In this document: piece by piece, positions 1 through 28,500 of the stretch
Layout of the letters: each line of letters opens with the position of its first letter
Numbering within the stretch: the first letter of the stretch is position 1
NCBI GenBank assembly: GCA_025057975.1
Contig: JANWUV010000004.1
Coordinates: 62,001 to 126,000 of the forward strand
From: Chloracidobacterium sp.
Lineage (GTDB): Bacteria; Acidobacteriota; Blastocatellia; Chloracidobacteriales; Chloracidobacteriaceae
Direction of reading: 5' to 3'
DNA length: 64,000 bases
Translations under genes and position numbers: made by a program
Notes under the pieces: model-generated
Told to the model about the DNA's origin: nothing
Databases searched by the model: none
The model's input: only the letters and a program-made list of their open reading frames with translations

Positions 1-1062
1 GCGCAGGCGTTTGAGATTATGCGCGCTTATCCGGGCGTTGTCCCGCCGTTACGCGATGAAGTCGTGTCGTACGGTGAACGGTTGTCGGCGACGTTGTTGG
101 CCGCTGTCATCGCCGCCGCCGGCGCGGCATGTCAGGCGGTGGACGCCCGGACGTGCATCGTGACGGATGATGTCTATGGGCGCGCGCGACCGCGTTGGGA
201 GGATACCATTGCACGGACGCGCGCGACGCTCCGGCCGGTGTTGGCGGAAGGCGTTATTCCGGTGTTGGGCGGTTTTATCGGCGCGACGCTCGACGGCGCA
301 ACAACGACCCTGGGACGGGGCGGCTCGGACTACTCGGCGACCTTGATCGGCGCGGCGCTTGAGGCGCGTGAGGTTCAAATCTGGACCGACGTGGCCGGCA
401 TTTACTCGGCCGACCCGCGCCTTGCGCCCGACGCGCGCCGGTTGGACCATTTGGCTTACGGGGAAGCGACGGATTTGGCGCTGTACGGCGCGAAGGTGCT
501 CCATCCGCGGACGATTGAGCCAGTGGAGCGGCTTCGGATTCCGGTGAGCATCCGCAACTCGTACGACCCGGAGGCGGGCTATTCAATGATTACGCCGGAT
601 TCCGGCGCGCCGGCTGGAGCGATTCTGGCGGTGACGCATCGCACCGGTATGGCGGCCGTCCATGTTCGTTTGGCGGGCGCACAACTGGCGGCGGGAGCGC
701 TGGAAGAACTGGCTCGGACGCTCAACGCTCATGGCGTGTTGGTGGAGCATTTGGCCGCGTCGCGGATGGGGCTGACGGCGACGGTGGAAGACGGCGACGC
801 CTTGGACGCCGCCTGCCGTGACTTACGCGGTATGGGCGAAGTTCAGGTCAGACCGCAGCGAGCCTTGCTCTGCGTGGTGGGAAACTTCGGAGATGACGCC
901 ACGGAACTGCATCCGACGCTAAGTGAAATCCTTGCCGATTTTCGGGTGACGCCGCTACTGCCGCATCCGTCGGCGCACTCGCGGTTGTTTCTAATGGCCG
1001 AAGCCGACGCCCCGACGGCGGTACGGCGGCTGCACGCACGGCTTATTGAAAATTCCCCCTAA
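1..1062 (+). CDS. lysC: Aspartokinase, C-terminal part (5' end outside window)
   Basis: Phosphorylates L-aspartate to aspartyl phosphate, the first step toward lysine, threonine and methionine. The frame is open to base 1 with six sense codons before the first ATG at 19, so the gene begins upstream of the window. The kinase domain shows the GRGGSDYSA substrate/ATP motif near residue 100 of the visible part and a downstream KVLHPRTIEP motif, both standard in aspartokinases. The last ~140 residues look like the paired ACT regulatory domains that usually give feedback inhibition by lysine or threonine. It ends in TAA about 110 bp before the next gene, so co-transcription with it is uncertain. 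Family assignment is firm; the allosteric effector cannot be read from the sequence. Confidence 0.93.
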   Translation, partial: AQAFEIMRAYPGVVPPLRDEVVSYGERLSATLLAAVIAAAGAACQAVDARTCIVTDDVYGRARPRWEDTIARTRATLRPVLAEGVIPVLGGFIGATLDGATTTLGRGGSDYSATLIGAALEAREVQIWTDVAGIYSADPRLAPDARRLDHLAYGEATDLALYGAKVLHPRTIEPVERLRIPVSIRNSYDPEAGYSMITPDSGAPAGAILAVTHRTGMAAVHVRLAGAQLAAGALEELARTLNAHGVLVEHLAASRMGLTATVEDGDALDAACRDLRGMGEVQVRPQRALLCVVGNFGDDATELHPTLSEILADFRVTPLLPHPSAHSRLFLMAEADAPTAVRRLHARLIENSP

Positions 1063-1171
1063 GCGTGTAGAGTTCGCCGCATGGTTATTTTGGTCGAAGC
1101 GACGCGCCGGCAAAGCTGAACCTTGCCGAACGGCGATAAAGCCGCCGCCTATGTGAGGAGAACTATGACCG

Positions 1172-1903
1172 ATGGCTGAACTTTCTGACGCCAGTCTCCT
1201 TGTCCGGTCGTTTATGCGAGCGTATCGCTACACGGTGTCGAGTTGGCGGCCGGCACATCTAAGCAAGCCGCTGACCGCGTGCAAGGTCGGTCTGGTGACG
1301 ACGGCGGCCTTTCACCTGCCGACGCAGCCTACCTTTGATCTCAGATTGGCGGGCGATCCGTCGTTTCGGGTGATTCCAACGGATGTCGATTTGGCGACGC
1401 TTAGGGTGGGGCATGTGAGTCCGTCGTTTGACCATACGGGCATTGAACGCGATCCGAACTTGGCGCTGCCGATCACGCGCTTTCAGGAGCTCGTCGCCGA
1501 GGGGGTAGTGGGGCGGTTGAATGAGCGGGCGTGGTCGTTCTGCGGCTCGATTCCCAAGCCCGGCGAACTCATCAATCGAACCGCCCCGGAAGCGGCGCGT
1601 CAGGCGCGGGCGGACGGGGTGGAGGTCGCCCTGCTGACGCCTGTCTGACCGATGTGCAATCAGTCGGTCGGACTGATTCAAGCTGCCTTTGAGAATGAAG
1701 GGATCGTGACGGTTTCGATTTCGCTGTACCGTTTTGTGACGGAGAAAGTGCGCCCGCCGCGTGCGCTCTGGGTACCGTTTCCCCTGGGGTATCCCTTGGG
1801 TGAGCCGCATAACGCGGCGCTTCAGCGGCGGGTGATTCTGGCGGCGCTGGATTTGTTGACGACGGAGGAGCCGTTGCCGGTCATCCGTGATTTTCAGCCA
1901 TGA
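1172..1903 (+). CDS. PrdB/GrdB-family selenoprotein with in-frame TGA (Sec159)
   Basis: A 243-residue member of the glycine/sarcosine/betaine/D-proline reductase selenoprotein B family, closest in layout to D-proline reductase subunit PrdB. The frame is interrupted only by TGA at 1646-1648; downstream it continues in the same frame through a family-typical C-terminus (WVPFPLGYPLGEP). Reading TGA as selenocysteine gives LLTPV-U-PMC-NQSVGLIQ, a UxxC redox motif where relatives have UxxC or CxxC. A near-perfect bacterial SECIS hairpin follows. Start ATG 1172 has GAGGAG at 1155-1160. The stop overlaps the next gene by ATGA. Substrate is unknown: no other reductase subunit is nearby, so a general thiol/selenol redox role is as likely as proline reduction. 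Standard gene callers would split it in two. Confidence 0.85.
1658..1678 (+). promoter_or_regulatory. Bacterial SECIS hairpin
   Basis: Perfect 8-bp stem AATCAGTC / GACTGATT closing the five-base loop GGTCG. The loop begins 17 nt after the TGA at 1646-1648. In E. coli fdhF the GGUCU loop starts 18 nt after UGA, so spacing and loop sequence both fit SelB recognition. The hairpin lies inside the coding sequence, as bacterial SECIS elements do. Confidence 0.85.
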
Positions 1904-2703
1904 CCGACGTGCCGCGCCTGCTGGTGGGGACGGTGGCGATGCGTCCCTACGTGTTTGTGTTTTTGCTGGCCTATCTGTTTTTGGCGGTGTCGCGGATGGG
2001 CTGGGTGCGGGCGCTGGTCTGGACGGTGCTAGCGTATTTGCTGGCTTTTGCCTGTGAGTGGAGTTCCATCCACAACGGATTCCCCTTCGGGTTGTATCGC
2101 TACTTTGATGACACGCGCGACCGTGAATTGTGGGTCGCCGGCGTGCCGTTTTTCGATTCGCTGTCCTTTGCGTTTCTGTCGTTTGTGAGTTTTGAAGCGG
2201 CGGTCATTCTGCGGACGCCGTGGGTTTCATGGCACACGACGGTTGGGGACGCAGCCGCGCGGCGCTCATGGTTGACGGTGGTTTACGCCGGTCTGCTGAT
2301 GATGTTTCTGGACGTGGTGATTGACCCAGTGACGTTGCAGGGGGAGCGGTGGTTTCTGGGCAAGCTGTACGACTACCCGCACGGCGGCTCCCACTTTGGC
2401 GTAACGATTGAGAACTACCTAGGGTGGTTTGTGGTGGCAGTGTTGATTACGACGAGCTTCCGGTTGTTGGAGGAGACGGTGTTGCGGACGGTTTCGCAGC
2501 GTGGGGCGTTCGATTTTCCGTTGAAGCACGCCGCGCCGCTAGGGGTGTATTTTGGGATTTTGGGCTTCAACATCGCCGTGACATTTTGGATTGGCGAAAC
2601 GACGATGGGGTGGGCGAGTACGTTCATCGCCCTGCTGCTTGGCTGGATGTTTGTCCAGCACGTGGCGTCACCCTATCGGCGCGGGGAAGGGGAACGAGGT
2701 TGA
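1900..2703 (+). CDS. Carotenoid biosynthesis protein, CruF-like (1',2'-hydratase family)
   Basis: A 267-residue integral membrane protein of the Caroten_synth (DUF422) family, which includes CruF, the gamma-carotene 1',2'-hydratase that adds water to the psi end of carotenoids. Visible support: about seven hydrophobic segments, the family-like WSSIHNGFPFGLYRY stretch near residue 53, and the acidic motif FLDVVIDPVTLQGERW near residue 137. Length is usual for the family. The start ATG overlaps the stop of the selenoprotein gene (ATGA), indicating translational coupling. Acidobacterial phototrophs carry hydroxylated monocyclic carotenoids, which fits. The exact substrate is inference. Confidence 0.8.
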   Translation: MTDVPRLLVGTVAMRPYVFVFLLAYLFLAVSRMGWVRALVWTVLAYLLAFACEWSSIHNGFPFGLYRYFDDTRDRELWVAGVPFFDSLSFAFLSFVSFEAAVILRTPWVSWHTTVGDAAARRSWLTVVYAGLLMMFLDVVIDPVTLQGERWFLGKLYDYPHGGSHFGVTIENYLGWFVVAVLITTSFRLLEETVLRTVSQRGAFDFPLKHAAPLGVYFGILGFNIAVTFWIGETTMGWASTFIALLLGWMFVQHVASPYRRGEGERG

Positions 2704-2802
2704 ACCGTCTTGTGGGGCGGGGAGGCGAGTCGAATTACACCGGATTGACCCACAACCAAGCAAAGCGTTGTTCGGTGCGCCCGTAAGTACTTAGTGGTGA
2801 AG

Positions 2803-2875
<73 letters not shown>

Positions 2876-2921
2876 CCAAGCGAGAGTGGGCAAGCCTAAG
2901 CTTTTCGCGTCGTGTTGTCAA

Positions 2922-4100
2922 TTAGCGCTGGGTTGATTCAACGGGTGTATGTCGGCCTTCATTCGTCGCCCTCAGCTCACGGCCGTCCGCGCCTCCGCTG
3001 AAAAGCCGCATTAGCCACGGCCACTCACGCCGTCCGTAGAGACCCTGCGGCCGCGCAATCATTAGCCCTACCAGCAGGAGCGAATAAAACACCATCCGGT
3101 AATCGGGCAAATTCGCTAGAAACGGCGCAGCAGCCGTCACCGACGGCGGCAACAGGCGAGTCAGGTCGCGCAACGCCTCCGGTAAAATGGTCAAAACGCT
3201 CGCCCCGACAATGGCGCCCGAAATGCTCCCCAAGCCGCCTAGCACGATCATCGTTACGATTTCCACCGACCGCAAAAACGTAAATGAACTTGGGTTGAGA
3301 TAATTGTCATAGTGCGCGTACAGCCCGCCGGCTACGCCGGTCAACGCCGCACTCACGACGAACGCCGTTGTTTTGGCGCGCGTCGTGTCAATCCCCATCG
3401 CCGCCGCCGCGATTTCATTTTCGCGCACGGCCGCCAGACTGCGCCCAAAGCTTGAATAGGCTAGGCGTCCTACCACCAGCACCGTCCCTGTCGCCGCCAG
3501 CGCAACCCAGAAAAACATCGTGTCTTCCAAAAACAGCGCGAACCGCTGGTCGGGGAGTCGCCCTGGTACGTCCGGCCCCTGCGCAATGTTGGTGAAGCCC
3601 AGTGCGCCGCCGGTCGGCTCAATGTTGAGCAGCACGACGCGAATGATCTCACCGAACCCCAGCGTGACAATCGCCAAGTAGTCACCCCGCAGCCGCAGCG
3701 TCGGCAAACCGACCAGCCATCCTGCGACGCCACTGACGGCCGCTCCGACTACAAGCGAGACCAGCAGCCGCACGGCGTGTACCGGCCAGGCGGGCAAGGT
3801 GTCCAGTAAAGCGACAAAGGGTGCGCCTCCGAAGTGCGTCACGGCTCCAGCCGCATACGCCCCAAGAGCCATAAATCCGGCATGCCCAATCGAAAACTGG
3901 CCGGCGCACCCATTGACCAGCGTCAAACTCACCGCCAACACGATGGAAATGCCCACCAACGTGACAACGCGTAGGTAATAAGCCGACAGCCCATAGCCCA
4001 ACAGGCCGTGGACGAAAACATGGTTGAGCAGAAACCAGCCCATCGTGACGACAACGACGCCAAGCCATGAACGAGCAGGATGTGGTCGTTGGTCATTCAC
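2922..4100 (-). CDS. livM: Branched-chain amino acid ABC transporter permease, LivM type
   Basis: One of the two inner-membrane permeases of a Liv-type importer for leucine/isoleucine/valine or related substrates. About 392 residues with many hydrophobic segments. Typical LivM stretches are visible: NGCAGQFSIGHAGFMALGAY near residue 60 and LRGDYLAIVTLGFGEIIRVV near residue 135, followed by the EAA-like loop region VRENEIAAAAMGID. I start at GTG 4100 because AAGGAG lies seven bases upstream; an in-frame ATG at 4124 lacks a comparable site. The LivH, LivG, LivF and binding-protein partners are not beside it, so it is an orphan here. It is divergent from the following permease gene. Confidence 0.88.
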   Translation of the reverse strand: MNDQRPHPARSWLGVVVVTMGWFLLNHVFVHGLLGYGLSAYYLRVVTLVGISIVLAVSLTLVNGCAGQFSIGHAGFMALGAYAAGAVTHFGGAPFVALLDTLPAWPVHAVRLLVSLVVGAAVSGVAGWLVGLPTLRLRGDYLAIVTLGFGEIIRVVLLNIEPTGGALGFTNIAQGPDVPGRLPDQRFALFLEDTMFFWVALAATGTVLVVGRLAYSSFGRSLAAVRENEIAAAAMGIDTTRAKTTAFVVSAALTGVAGGLYAHYDNYLNPSSFTFLRSVEIVTMIVLGGLGSISGAIVGASVLTILPEALRDLTRLLPPSVTAAAPFLANLPDYRMVFYSLLLVGLMIARPQGLYGRREWPWLMRLFSGGADGRELRATNEGRHTPVESTQR

Positions 4101-25560: not shown

Positions 25561-28500
25561 CTAGAACTGATACCGCACGCCGACCTGGAACTGAAACACC
25601 GAATTGCCCAGCGTGTTGTTGAGCAAGAGCTGACCTAAGCGGGGGCTGGCTGGGTTGCGCTCACGCAGTGAGAGGAAGTTCGGGTTGAGTGGGACGTTCG
25701 CCTGCGGAATGCCGCAGTTGCGCTGCGCCGCAATCAGGGCGTTGCCCGTCAGACCGGCGAAGTTGCACATGCTCGTCACCGCCGCGCCGCTGTACTGCAA
25801 GCCCATCAGGTTGAAGATGTTGAAAAACTCGCCCGAAATCGTGACATTCTGCGATTCAGTAATCTTGAACCGCTTCTGCAAACGCAGGTCAACGTTGTAG
25901 ATCGGACGATTGCGGAAGGCGTTGCGCGGAAATGGCTCGCCTGGCGCACGGTACGGCCGGTCAAGTAGGCCACCCGCGCCCGCGCCCAGTGTGCCGTCGC
26001 GGTTGACATCAGCTAAGCCGCCGCCAATGTTGCCCACAATTGCATCAACCGGGAAAGCGGATTGCAACCGAACGATACTCGACACTTCAAAGCCGTACGG
26101 CAGGAAGATAACCGGATTGACGACAAACAGATGCCGCCGGTCAATGTTCGAGAAACCGCGCTCGGCGCGCAGGTCAAAAGAGTTCACCGGGAACGAGCCG
26201 CCCGCTTCGCGCTCGTTGTCATCGTCGGAGCGGTTGTCCGACAGCGTGTAAAAGGCCGAAAACTGCCCCCACTTGCGCTCAAACTTCGTCCGCAGCACCA
26301 TCGCGCGATACACCGACCGCGCCGTAGATTCGCGTACCGTAAGTTGCCCGACACCTAGGTTCGGCCGCGTCGCAAACGGTGCCACTGTCGGGTTGAAAAT
26401 CGGCCGCAGCGAGATGTCACCCGGAATGTTGTCCGGGTTGATGCGCGGCGCAGGCAGATTCAACTGCCGGTTGCGCTGGAGGTACACCGTGTTGATATAC
26501 GAGAAGTCCACTCCCACCGTTAGGCCGCGCGCCAGTTGATACTCGTAACCAAAGTTGGCCTGCACCGAACGCGGGTTGCGGAAGTCTTCAGCAATAAACA
26601 ACGGCGACGCCGCCACCGCCAGTGAGAACGGCGTTGCGCCCGCCGGCAGAAACTGGTTCAGAATGTTCGCAATCTGCGTCAGCTGCGCTGGCGTTACCGT
26701 CGGCAGGGCGCTCAACTGGAAGTTGTTGAGGTTGATGCCCGCCAGCAGGAGTTGACGAAACACCGTGTTTGGCGCAGCACCCGTTCCCATGACCGCCCGA
26801 TAACCAGCCGTCGCCGGCGAAGCGTCAAACGCCGCTTGGTTGAAGCCAGCCGGCAACGCAAACGGAATTTGCGCCGACAGGTTGCCCGGTGGAATACGGA
26901 AGTTGTTTGTAGCGTCGGCGAAGAGCAACAGCGGCGTCGTCGCATAATAGATGCCGCCGTTAGCACGGAAAACCGACTTGCCGTTGTTGAGCGGGTCCCA
27001 CGCGATGCCCACGCGCGGCGCAAATTGGTCAGTGGCATCGGGAATCGTCGTCGGGTTGCGCCGGAAGCCGGGGGCGTCAATCGGGTACTGCACGCTGCGC
27101 ACAATGTTCACCAAGTCGGTGTTATTCGTCGCCGGGGTTGGGTTGTATTGCCCTTCCCAGCGCAGCCCGTAGTTCAAGGTGAAGTTCGGGCGAATGCGCC
27201 ACGAATCCTGACCAAAGAAAGCCAGTTGGTGAACCGTGTACTCGGTGAAGCGGTTGCCGATCTGCACGGTGTAGTTGGCCGGTACGTCAAACCGCCCACG
27301 CTGCGCTGTCGGAGGCGCGCCCGGCGGTACAACCGGCACCTGCACGGCGTTAATGACCGCCAGCGTCGTGTTGGCGCCGATAAGCGAATAGGCCCCAAAC
27401 TGGTTGAAACCGAACAACTGAGTGGCGAAGACCCGGCTGTACTCAAAGCCGAACTTCATTGTGTGGTTGCCGGCCAGGAACGTCAGGTTGTTGACGAACT
27501 GCGTCCGCGTGTCGTACTGCGTCGTCGGCAGAAAGTTGACCGCGCCCACGTTGCCGATGAAGCTGTTAAAGGTCGGACGGCTGGAGTTCGAGCCGCGCGG
27601 ACGATCCTCCCGCGCGAACTGAAAGCGAAACTCGTTGAACAGGCTCGGCGTGAGCGTCGTGTAAAGCGACACGACGCCGATGTTGTTCCGGTTGCGCTCT
27701 GCGCCGTTGTTCGCCAGCGAGCTGCTAGTGATCGGAAAGATTTGCGGCCCGGTGGAGTTCGCGTTGAGCGCACGGTTGTAGCTAAAGTTGTAGCGAACCG
27801 TCAGCAGGTTTTTGCTGTTGATTTGCCAATCAAGGCGCAGAAGCGGCGCCCAAGCGTCGTTGGTCTGCTCAAAATTGCCTTGCTCGCTGACGTAAAAATC
27901 ATAGACCGCTCGCTGGGATGGTGTCAGCGTCGCCGGATCAACCAGCGCCAAGTTGGAGAAAACCGTGCTGCGCGTCTGACGCAGGATCTGCTGCTCGTAC
28001 GCGAAGAAGAAAAACAGCTTGTTCTTGAAGATTGGCCCACCGATGGAGCCGCCGAACTGATGCTGCGTCGGCGCAGCATTGATGCGCCCAGTGATGCCCT
28101 GATTACGAAACTCAGCTTCCTGAGCGCGGAAGAAATCGTTAGTGCGCGACGCTTCCTGCGGACGGATCAGATAAAAGGCTGTGCCGTGGAACTCGTTTGT
28201 GCCGCTCTTTGTGACGGCGTTGACCGTCCCGCCGGTAGAGCGGCCGAACTCGGCCGAATAACCCGCTGATACCACTTGGAACTCGCGGATGGCCTCCTGC
28301 GGAATCGTAAACGCCGAGTTGGAGCGTTCGCCGCCGCGAATACCGCCGAAAAACGGCTGGTTGTAGTCCATCCCGTCCACGTTCACGTTCGCGCCGTAGA
28401 CGCCGCGCTGACCAGACAGTGAGATCTGCTGCCGGCGCGGTTCCACCTGGGCGTTAGGTGCCAGCGTCACAAAGTCTTGGAAACGCCGACCGTTGATGGG

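Follow-up and report, generated by a model that had tools for sequence, protein, structure and literature searches.

Comparative evidence for a selenocysteine-encoding TGA in a PrdB-like gene of Chloracidobacterium

Introduction

Is a gene that seems to be split by a stop codon broken, or does the codon encode an amino acid, and what would the protein then do? A locus of Chloracidobacterium sp. (GCA_025057975.1) raises this question. Within the window, by which we mean the whole 64,000-nucleotide stretch of DNA analysed here, two standard open reading frames (1172-1648 and 1652-1903) share one frame, from an ATG at 1172 to a final TGA at 1901-1903. Reading through the single internal TGA yields 243 residues with the motif U159-P-M-C162. 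The initial annotation, made from the letters alone, had proposed one gene with an in-frame TGA at 1646-1648, encoding a selenocysteine (Sec) protein of the PrdB/GrdB family, which it regarded as unusual in this probably aerobic bacterium, the known enzymes being from amino-acid-fermenting anaerobes.

Selenoproteins have been recorded in this phylum: an excerpt of a 2006 survey reports Acidobacteria with four selenoproteins of three families (PMC1794560), and one of a 2025 prediction paper an acidobacterium with three known selenoprotein genes (PMC12013277). Sec users stand at 40.4% among aerobes and 35.8% among anaerobes in the excerpted part of a 2016 survey (PMC5029168), while a 2026 review, again as excerpted, describes the PrdB family as D-proline reductase (PMC13188914). 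For Chloracidobacterium itself, the main text of three papers (PMC4376005, PMC8245765, PMC12816986) contains no word beginning with "selen". Our searches of the open-licence literature returned no paper linking PrdB, selenocysteine and Acidobacteria, and none on PrdB-like selenoproteins or on the selenocysteine of betaine reductase selenoprotein B.

Results

Gene layout and conservation of the in-frame TGA

The features of the locus are as follows.

1..1062, plus strand: upstream same-strand gene whose 5' end lies beyond the window; also found ahead of the selenoprotein gene in six of the seven congeners, G006 being the exception; presumably an aspartate kinase, judged by its MKFGGTSVQD start
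1155..1160, plus strand: GAGGAG, a possible ribosome-binding site 11 nt 5' of the ATG, read from the letters
1172..1903, plus strand: predicted read-through selenoprotein gene (243 aa, Sec159) of a PrdB-like UPxC branch, from translation, family scan, congeners and tree
1646..1648, plus strand: in-frame TGA, the predicted Sec codon, residue 159 (Sec in 45/45 branch rows)
1655..1657, plus strand: codon of Cys162, the likely resolving Cys of U-x-x-C (Cys in 45/45 branch rows)
1658..1678, plus strand: intragenic SECIS-like hairpin, with stem arms at 1658-1665 and 1671-1678 and the loop GGTCG at 1666-1670
1900..2703, plus strand: CruF-like carotenoid biosynthesis gene (PF04240, 70.5 bits, cut-off 25; below the CruF equivalog cut-offs)

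The proposed coordinates were exact, and the TGA occupies the Sec site in all seven Chloracidobacterium genomes examined, the window included (the other six at 86-91% identity). Homologues in many other Acidobacteriota families, at ~40-58% identity, carry it as well. Named relatives were few: a search for related loci gave only five, the closest proteins coming from metagenome-assembled genomes at 86-88% identity (two Chloracidobacterium and one Blastocatellia), and the wider breadth derives from a sample of genomes of the phylum. Across the 21 pairs among the seven congeners, dN/dS ranged from 0.00 to 0.12 in the portion 3' of the TGA (codons 160-243) and from 0.05 to 0.18 in the portion 5' of it. 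Judged by these ratios, the coding part beyond the TGA is under strong protein selection, and the suggestion that the C-terminus continues the family was borne out, as was the read-through UxxC motif at residues 159-162.

Most likely, then, the gene that seems broken by a stop is one intact gene whose "stop" encodes selenocysteine, and its product is almost certainly a selenoprotein. That a true stop, or a sequencing error, divides a once-intact gene, as the two frames from mechanical ORF finding might suggest, is ruled out with hardly any residual probability by a TGA present in 7/7 congeners and 45/45 rows of the gene's own tree branch, by purifying selection that persists beyond it and by a covarying hairpin on its 3' side. 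Because mechanical ORF finding splits the gene into two, as foreseen by the initial annotation, ordinary annotation would probably miss the selenoprotein.

A conserved hairpin downstream of the TGA

Bacterial SECIS elements are recognised by a hairpin that closely follows the UGA and has a conserved stem and a GU in the loop. The hairpin here is exact: AATCAGTC at 1658-1665, the loop GGTCG at 1666-1670 and GACTGATT at 1671-1678. It had been described as perfect and lying 17 nt downstream; the 8-bp stem is indeed perfect, and the hairpin is maintained by compensatory changes across 52 distinct sequences, but the stem starts 9 nt after the TGA, and the figure of 17 nt matches the position of the loop. 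The two strands of the window together contain 2,049 TGA triplets; when these were scanned for a perfect 8-bp stem that begins 6-17 nt 3' of the TGA and encloses a loop of 4-7 nt, only two qualified, this one and another at 27636.

Conservation was assessed in 54 homologues (52 distinct), chosen from the 75 Sec rows by an identity of 39% or more and by a fourth site occupied by C or U. Here the seven inner pairs were formed in 97.8% of cells, both sides had changed in five of these seven pairs, and the covariation score of 0.421 compared with 0.170 in shuffles (0/500 as high); sliding the partner strand by 1-3 columns left at most 41.5% paired. The eighth pair, at the outer end of the stem, persisted in just 25% of the distinct rows. 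For the 8-bp stem, pairing was 89.1% as observed versus 66.2% under synonymous recoding (sd 1.7, highest 71.3), in a control whose codon pools include some out-of-frame triplets, several rows having run past the final TGA. As observed pairing exceeds that of recoded sequences, the hairpin is not forced by the amino acids alone. In the loop, a G (G22) was found in 54/54 rows and the following T (T23) in 53/54, a GU that we take to be the SelB contact.

Thermodynamic predictions were less favourable. In isolation, 1646-1690 folded about as well as its dinucleotide shuffles (z -0.58). Rfam gave no SECIS match within 900-3000. The fold of 1640-1690, which had been put forward as a check, favours a rival hairpin pairing through the TGA (z -3.05), whereas the comparative covariation supports the SECIS-like one. 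The case for the predicted element is therefore one of conservation and not of stability alone, and the predicted decoding of the UGA as Sec via an intragenic SECIS is backed by strong comparative evidence.

Selenium machinery and its co-occurrence with the TGA

A search for selA, selB, selC and selD had been recommended, and all four are found in the host genome (3.52 Mb in 86 contigs, 99.9% complete): profile matches to SelA (527 bits), SelB (359.7) and SelD (385.1) all exceeded their cut-offs, and a tRNA-Sec with anticodon TCA scored 64 bits. The initial annotation had named absence of selB and tRNA-Sec, or related strains with a stop and no conserved C-terminus, as what would speak against it; both genes are present, and the TGA and the C-terminus are conserved in relatives.

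Among 297 genomes of the phylum, SelB (E 1e-60 or better) occurred in 52 of the 53 with a TGA-bearing homologue versus 144 of the 244 others, a table that was counted by eye and whose Fisher p of 6e-10 ignores relatedness. The sole TGA-bearing genome lacking SelB at this threshold was G108 (99% complete). Among 58 relatives, eight had no SelB over the profile cut-off. Three of these (G053, G056 and G057, 97-99% complete) fit the Sec reading because their homologues lack the TGA. The remaining five have a homologue with the TGA; they are the congener G002 (85% complete) together with G012, G030, G050 and G054 (73-92%). They are misfits unless their SelB gene is missing from, or broken up in, the drafts; G030 and G012 hold partial SelB matches.

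Elsewhere in the host genome, on the minus strand outside the window (L172, G000:C4:33833-34207), lies a peroxiredoxin-like gene. Its match to PF00578 (80.7 bits) contains a single in-frame TGA. Its read-through product contains ...RGFIUPFCYPRL, again UxxC, and the hairpin predicted after its TGA has the loop GGTCG, like that of the 1172-1903 gene. By these features it is a probable second selenoprotein. The formate dehydrogenase, CMD and Rdx families gave no TGA-bearing match in the host genome.

Relation to PrdB and GrdB

We examined 101 family loci, a subset of the homologue places listed; together with eight plasmid homologues they make up the 109 rows of the tree. From the alignment (A3), six short or over-long loci were omitted, and the window sequence replaces L009. 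The gene falls in a 45-row branch apart from PrdB, with support of 93/93, slightly short of the level that the program marks with a star. In an AU test, a single clade of this branch and six PrdB-group sequences was rejected (p 0.0042), the PrdB group (6 of 109 rows) having been named after the tree was seen.

D-proline reductase requires the pyruvoyl subunit PrdA. A PrdA-type protein (PF09338) had no match in the host genome or in six congeners and was matched in 3/58 relatives; two PrdA controls scored 79 and 93 bits with the same profile. The reading that our protein is the PrdB subunit of a true D-proline reductase, acting in amino-acid metabolism, draws on PrdB (TIGR04483) being the best NCBIfam match (E 8e-35) and on 20 positions that the six PrdB-group sequences share with 95% or more of the branch, among them Asp62, Arg66, His81, Asp87, Asp94, Asn96, Sec159, Cys162 and Arg197. 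However, its score of 120.4 bits lies under the cut-off of 300, which all three PrdB-annotated controls scanned passed (422.6, 406.7 and 310.2 bits), and 11 positions differ consistently between the branch and the PrdB group, including Pro160 (Gly in PrdB, so that UP stands in place of UG) and Gln164 (Arg). Because no PrdA-type partner was found, PrdB identity is very unlikely in Chloracidobacterium, and the missing PF09338 match, the score below those of the controls and the AU rejection lead us to discard D-proline reductase as a highly improbable assignment.

The GrdB-type cut-offs were missed too (PF07355, 17.4 versus 22 bits; TIGR01918, 30.2 versus 65.45). GrdB, GrdF and GrdH, the selenoprotein B of glycine, sarcosine and betaine reductases, have a homologous C-terminal part and UxxC, but their profiles span 431-435 positions and include an additional N-terminal portion. 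PrdB has 241 versus 243 residues and UxxC in the same place, but differs in having UGTC and Arg where the branch has UPxC and Gln164, and in its PrdA-type partner. A third point of comparison is a Cys-form 'selenoprotein B family' of Alphaproteobacteria (Roseomonas and Haematobacter; L160 and L166), in which the catalytic residue is likewise followed by Pro (CPVC, CPIC) and the annotated neighbours listed include no prdA, but which carries Cys for Sec and sits in another tree branch. By these comparisons the protein is a PrdB relative, and neither PrdB nor GrdB: of the proposed PrdB/GrdB family selenoprotein, homology and UxxC hold, whereas the missed curated cut-offs, the lack of a PrdA-type protein and the separate branch speak against its being PrdB or GrdB itself. 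The shared core combined with consistent differences would be expected for similar chemistry on another substrate.

On a plasmid of Peptoclostridium acidaminophilum, a gene annotated prdB (L159; 310 bits, over the cut-off) has no prdA listed within ~6 kb, in a gene table that is incomplete.

Variation at the Sec site

Within the branch, U at the Sec site and C at the fourth site are invariant (45/45 each), the motifs being UPMC (38 rows), UPTC (3), UPLC (2), UPVC (1) and UPRC (1). Over the 101 family loci, the Sec-site residue is U in 75, C in 13, S in 8, E in 3 and D in 2. Cys at residue 159, which the initial annotation had suggested looking for in homologues, thus exists in 13/101 loci, all of them in other branches, but in none of the 45 rows of the gene's own. 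These rows indicate that Sec/Cys exchange occurs in other branches of the family; in 6 of the 13 the second Cys is replaced by Ser (CxLS). Ser (8/101) and Glu or Asp (5/101) at the site imply that neither Sec nor Cys is needed at this position in some relatives.

The Ser loci (SRLC, second Cys kept) are L033-L038, L125 and L138, all of family f4; those with Glu or Asp are L119, L120, L124, L128 and L137. One PrdB-family homologue (L032, G017:C91:14965-15576) has two in-frame TGA three codons apart, giving U-P-I-U. This UxxU arrangement is listed for other families, and not for the PrdB family, in the excerpted part of the 2026 review (PMC13188914). A second paralogue shows the wider spacing U-P-x-V-C (UxxxC; L089-L095, L149-L153, L122, L123, L126 and L132) and its Cys forms, CPETC and CPEVC, occur in other genomes.

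Neighbourhood and fold

The final stop of the gene and the ATG of the cruF homologue overlap as ATGA in 7/7 congeners, and in Chloracidobacterium the two genes are probably translationally coupled. The coupling to a carotenoid gene that had been noted from the sequence is therefore constant in the genus (7/7), but the cruF homologue was 3' of the gene in none of 16 other loci tested, and we dropped carotenoids as a functional clue on this ground. In the neighbourhoods read (parts of L070 to L074 excluded), no directly adjacent gene was common across families.

The neighbours differ from one family to another; for example, an NCS2/AzgA-like permease, named by eye from its sequence, lies near the gene in seven f7 loci. 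Farther from the gene, large protein families recur across families in a few cases (clusters 1, 2 and 13), and an SDR-like gene occurs ~1.7-2.0 kb downstream in G001, G003 and G005 and, in opposite orientation, in G026 and G030; these recurrences are raw tallies.

An AF2 model built from six sequences (pLDDT 82.5, pTM 0.85) predicts an alpha/beta protein with Sec159 between a strand (152-156) and a helix (160-175). Foldseek against the PDB returned nothing at E 0.001 or better, and sequence searches of solved structures gave no meaningful relative. A second fold comparison retrieved LacI- and binding-protein-like alpha/beta chains (best Z 8.2, a level that the tool calls common). The idea of an Asp/Glu-racemase-like fold is unsupported, the fold searches having yielded no such relative.

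Discussion

The best explanation of the whole, to which we assign a probability of about 0.78, is that the gene encodes a selenoprotein, a stand-alone relative of PrdB performing selenol chemistry on a substrate other than that of a PrdA-dependent enzyme. In the mechanism that we propose, SelB and tRNA-Sec would read the UGA at 1646-1648 as selenocysteine, guided by the hairpin just downstream, and the product would be a stand-alone relative of the PrdB subunit, from an Acidobacteriota branch in which every row examined has Sec. Located where a helix begins, the selenol of Sec159 may attack an oxidised or otherwise activated small molecule or protein; Cys162 would then resolve the intermediate, and a cellular thiol reductant would recycle the Sec/Cys pair. 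Since core residues of the PrdB family are kept (Asp62, Arg66, His81, Asp87, Asp94, Asn96, Arg197), chemistry of the PrdB kind is probably kept as well, and it would run without the pyruvoyl partner PrdA, on a substrate other than PrdB's. Our best reading is thus a putative stand-alone selenol redox or reductive-cleavage enzyme, the type of reaction being suggested by homology.

Alternatively, the selenoprotein could act in redox regulation or as a carrier of selenium or of a metal, and not as an enzyme. The absence of a constant adjacent partner gene and of any substrate clue would agree with such a role, and UxxC is known in thiol-disulfide proteins too, as an excerpt of the 2026 review has it (PMC13188914). 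Yet the conserved core of charged and polar residues held in common with PrdB fits an active site, and we consider a carrier or regulator unlikely.

How new is this protein? PrdB-family selenoproteins are known as a kind; what is new is a Sec-only branch without PrdA. Marine waters such as those behind the published seawater sets are oxygenated. According to excerpts of the two reports, UxxC selenoproteins labelled PrdB ranked third in abundance among the families of the Sargasso Sea set, with 42 genes (2005, PMC1088965), and numbered 235 in Global Ocean Sampling (2008, PMC2398784). The notion that the class is confined to amino-acid fermenters does not hold against this abundance. The occurrence here is consequently less odd than the initial annotation had it, given those precedents of 2005 and 2008. 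The seawater proteins share the family label and UxxC with ours and, going by their excerpted descriptions only, some may belong to the UPxC branch (PMC1088965, PMC2398784).

More tentatively, and with the odds leaning against it, the UPxC branch might constitute an unnamed enzyme family, Sec-only, stand-alone and PrdA-free, that brings the selenol chemistry of D-proline and glycine reductases to oxygen-using bacteria for the reductive cleavage or repair of a non-proline substrate. If this were true, part of the database entries labelled "PrdB" outside fermenters would be the same UPxC enzyme. In any case, a PrdB-like protein is present in many Acidobacteriota, including the oxygen-requiring phototroph Chloracidobacterium; its nearest curated relative is an enzyme of fermenting anaerobes. 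With Sec predicted in 45/45 rows, the branch offers a good system in which to ask why an oxygen-using cell keeps selenium.
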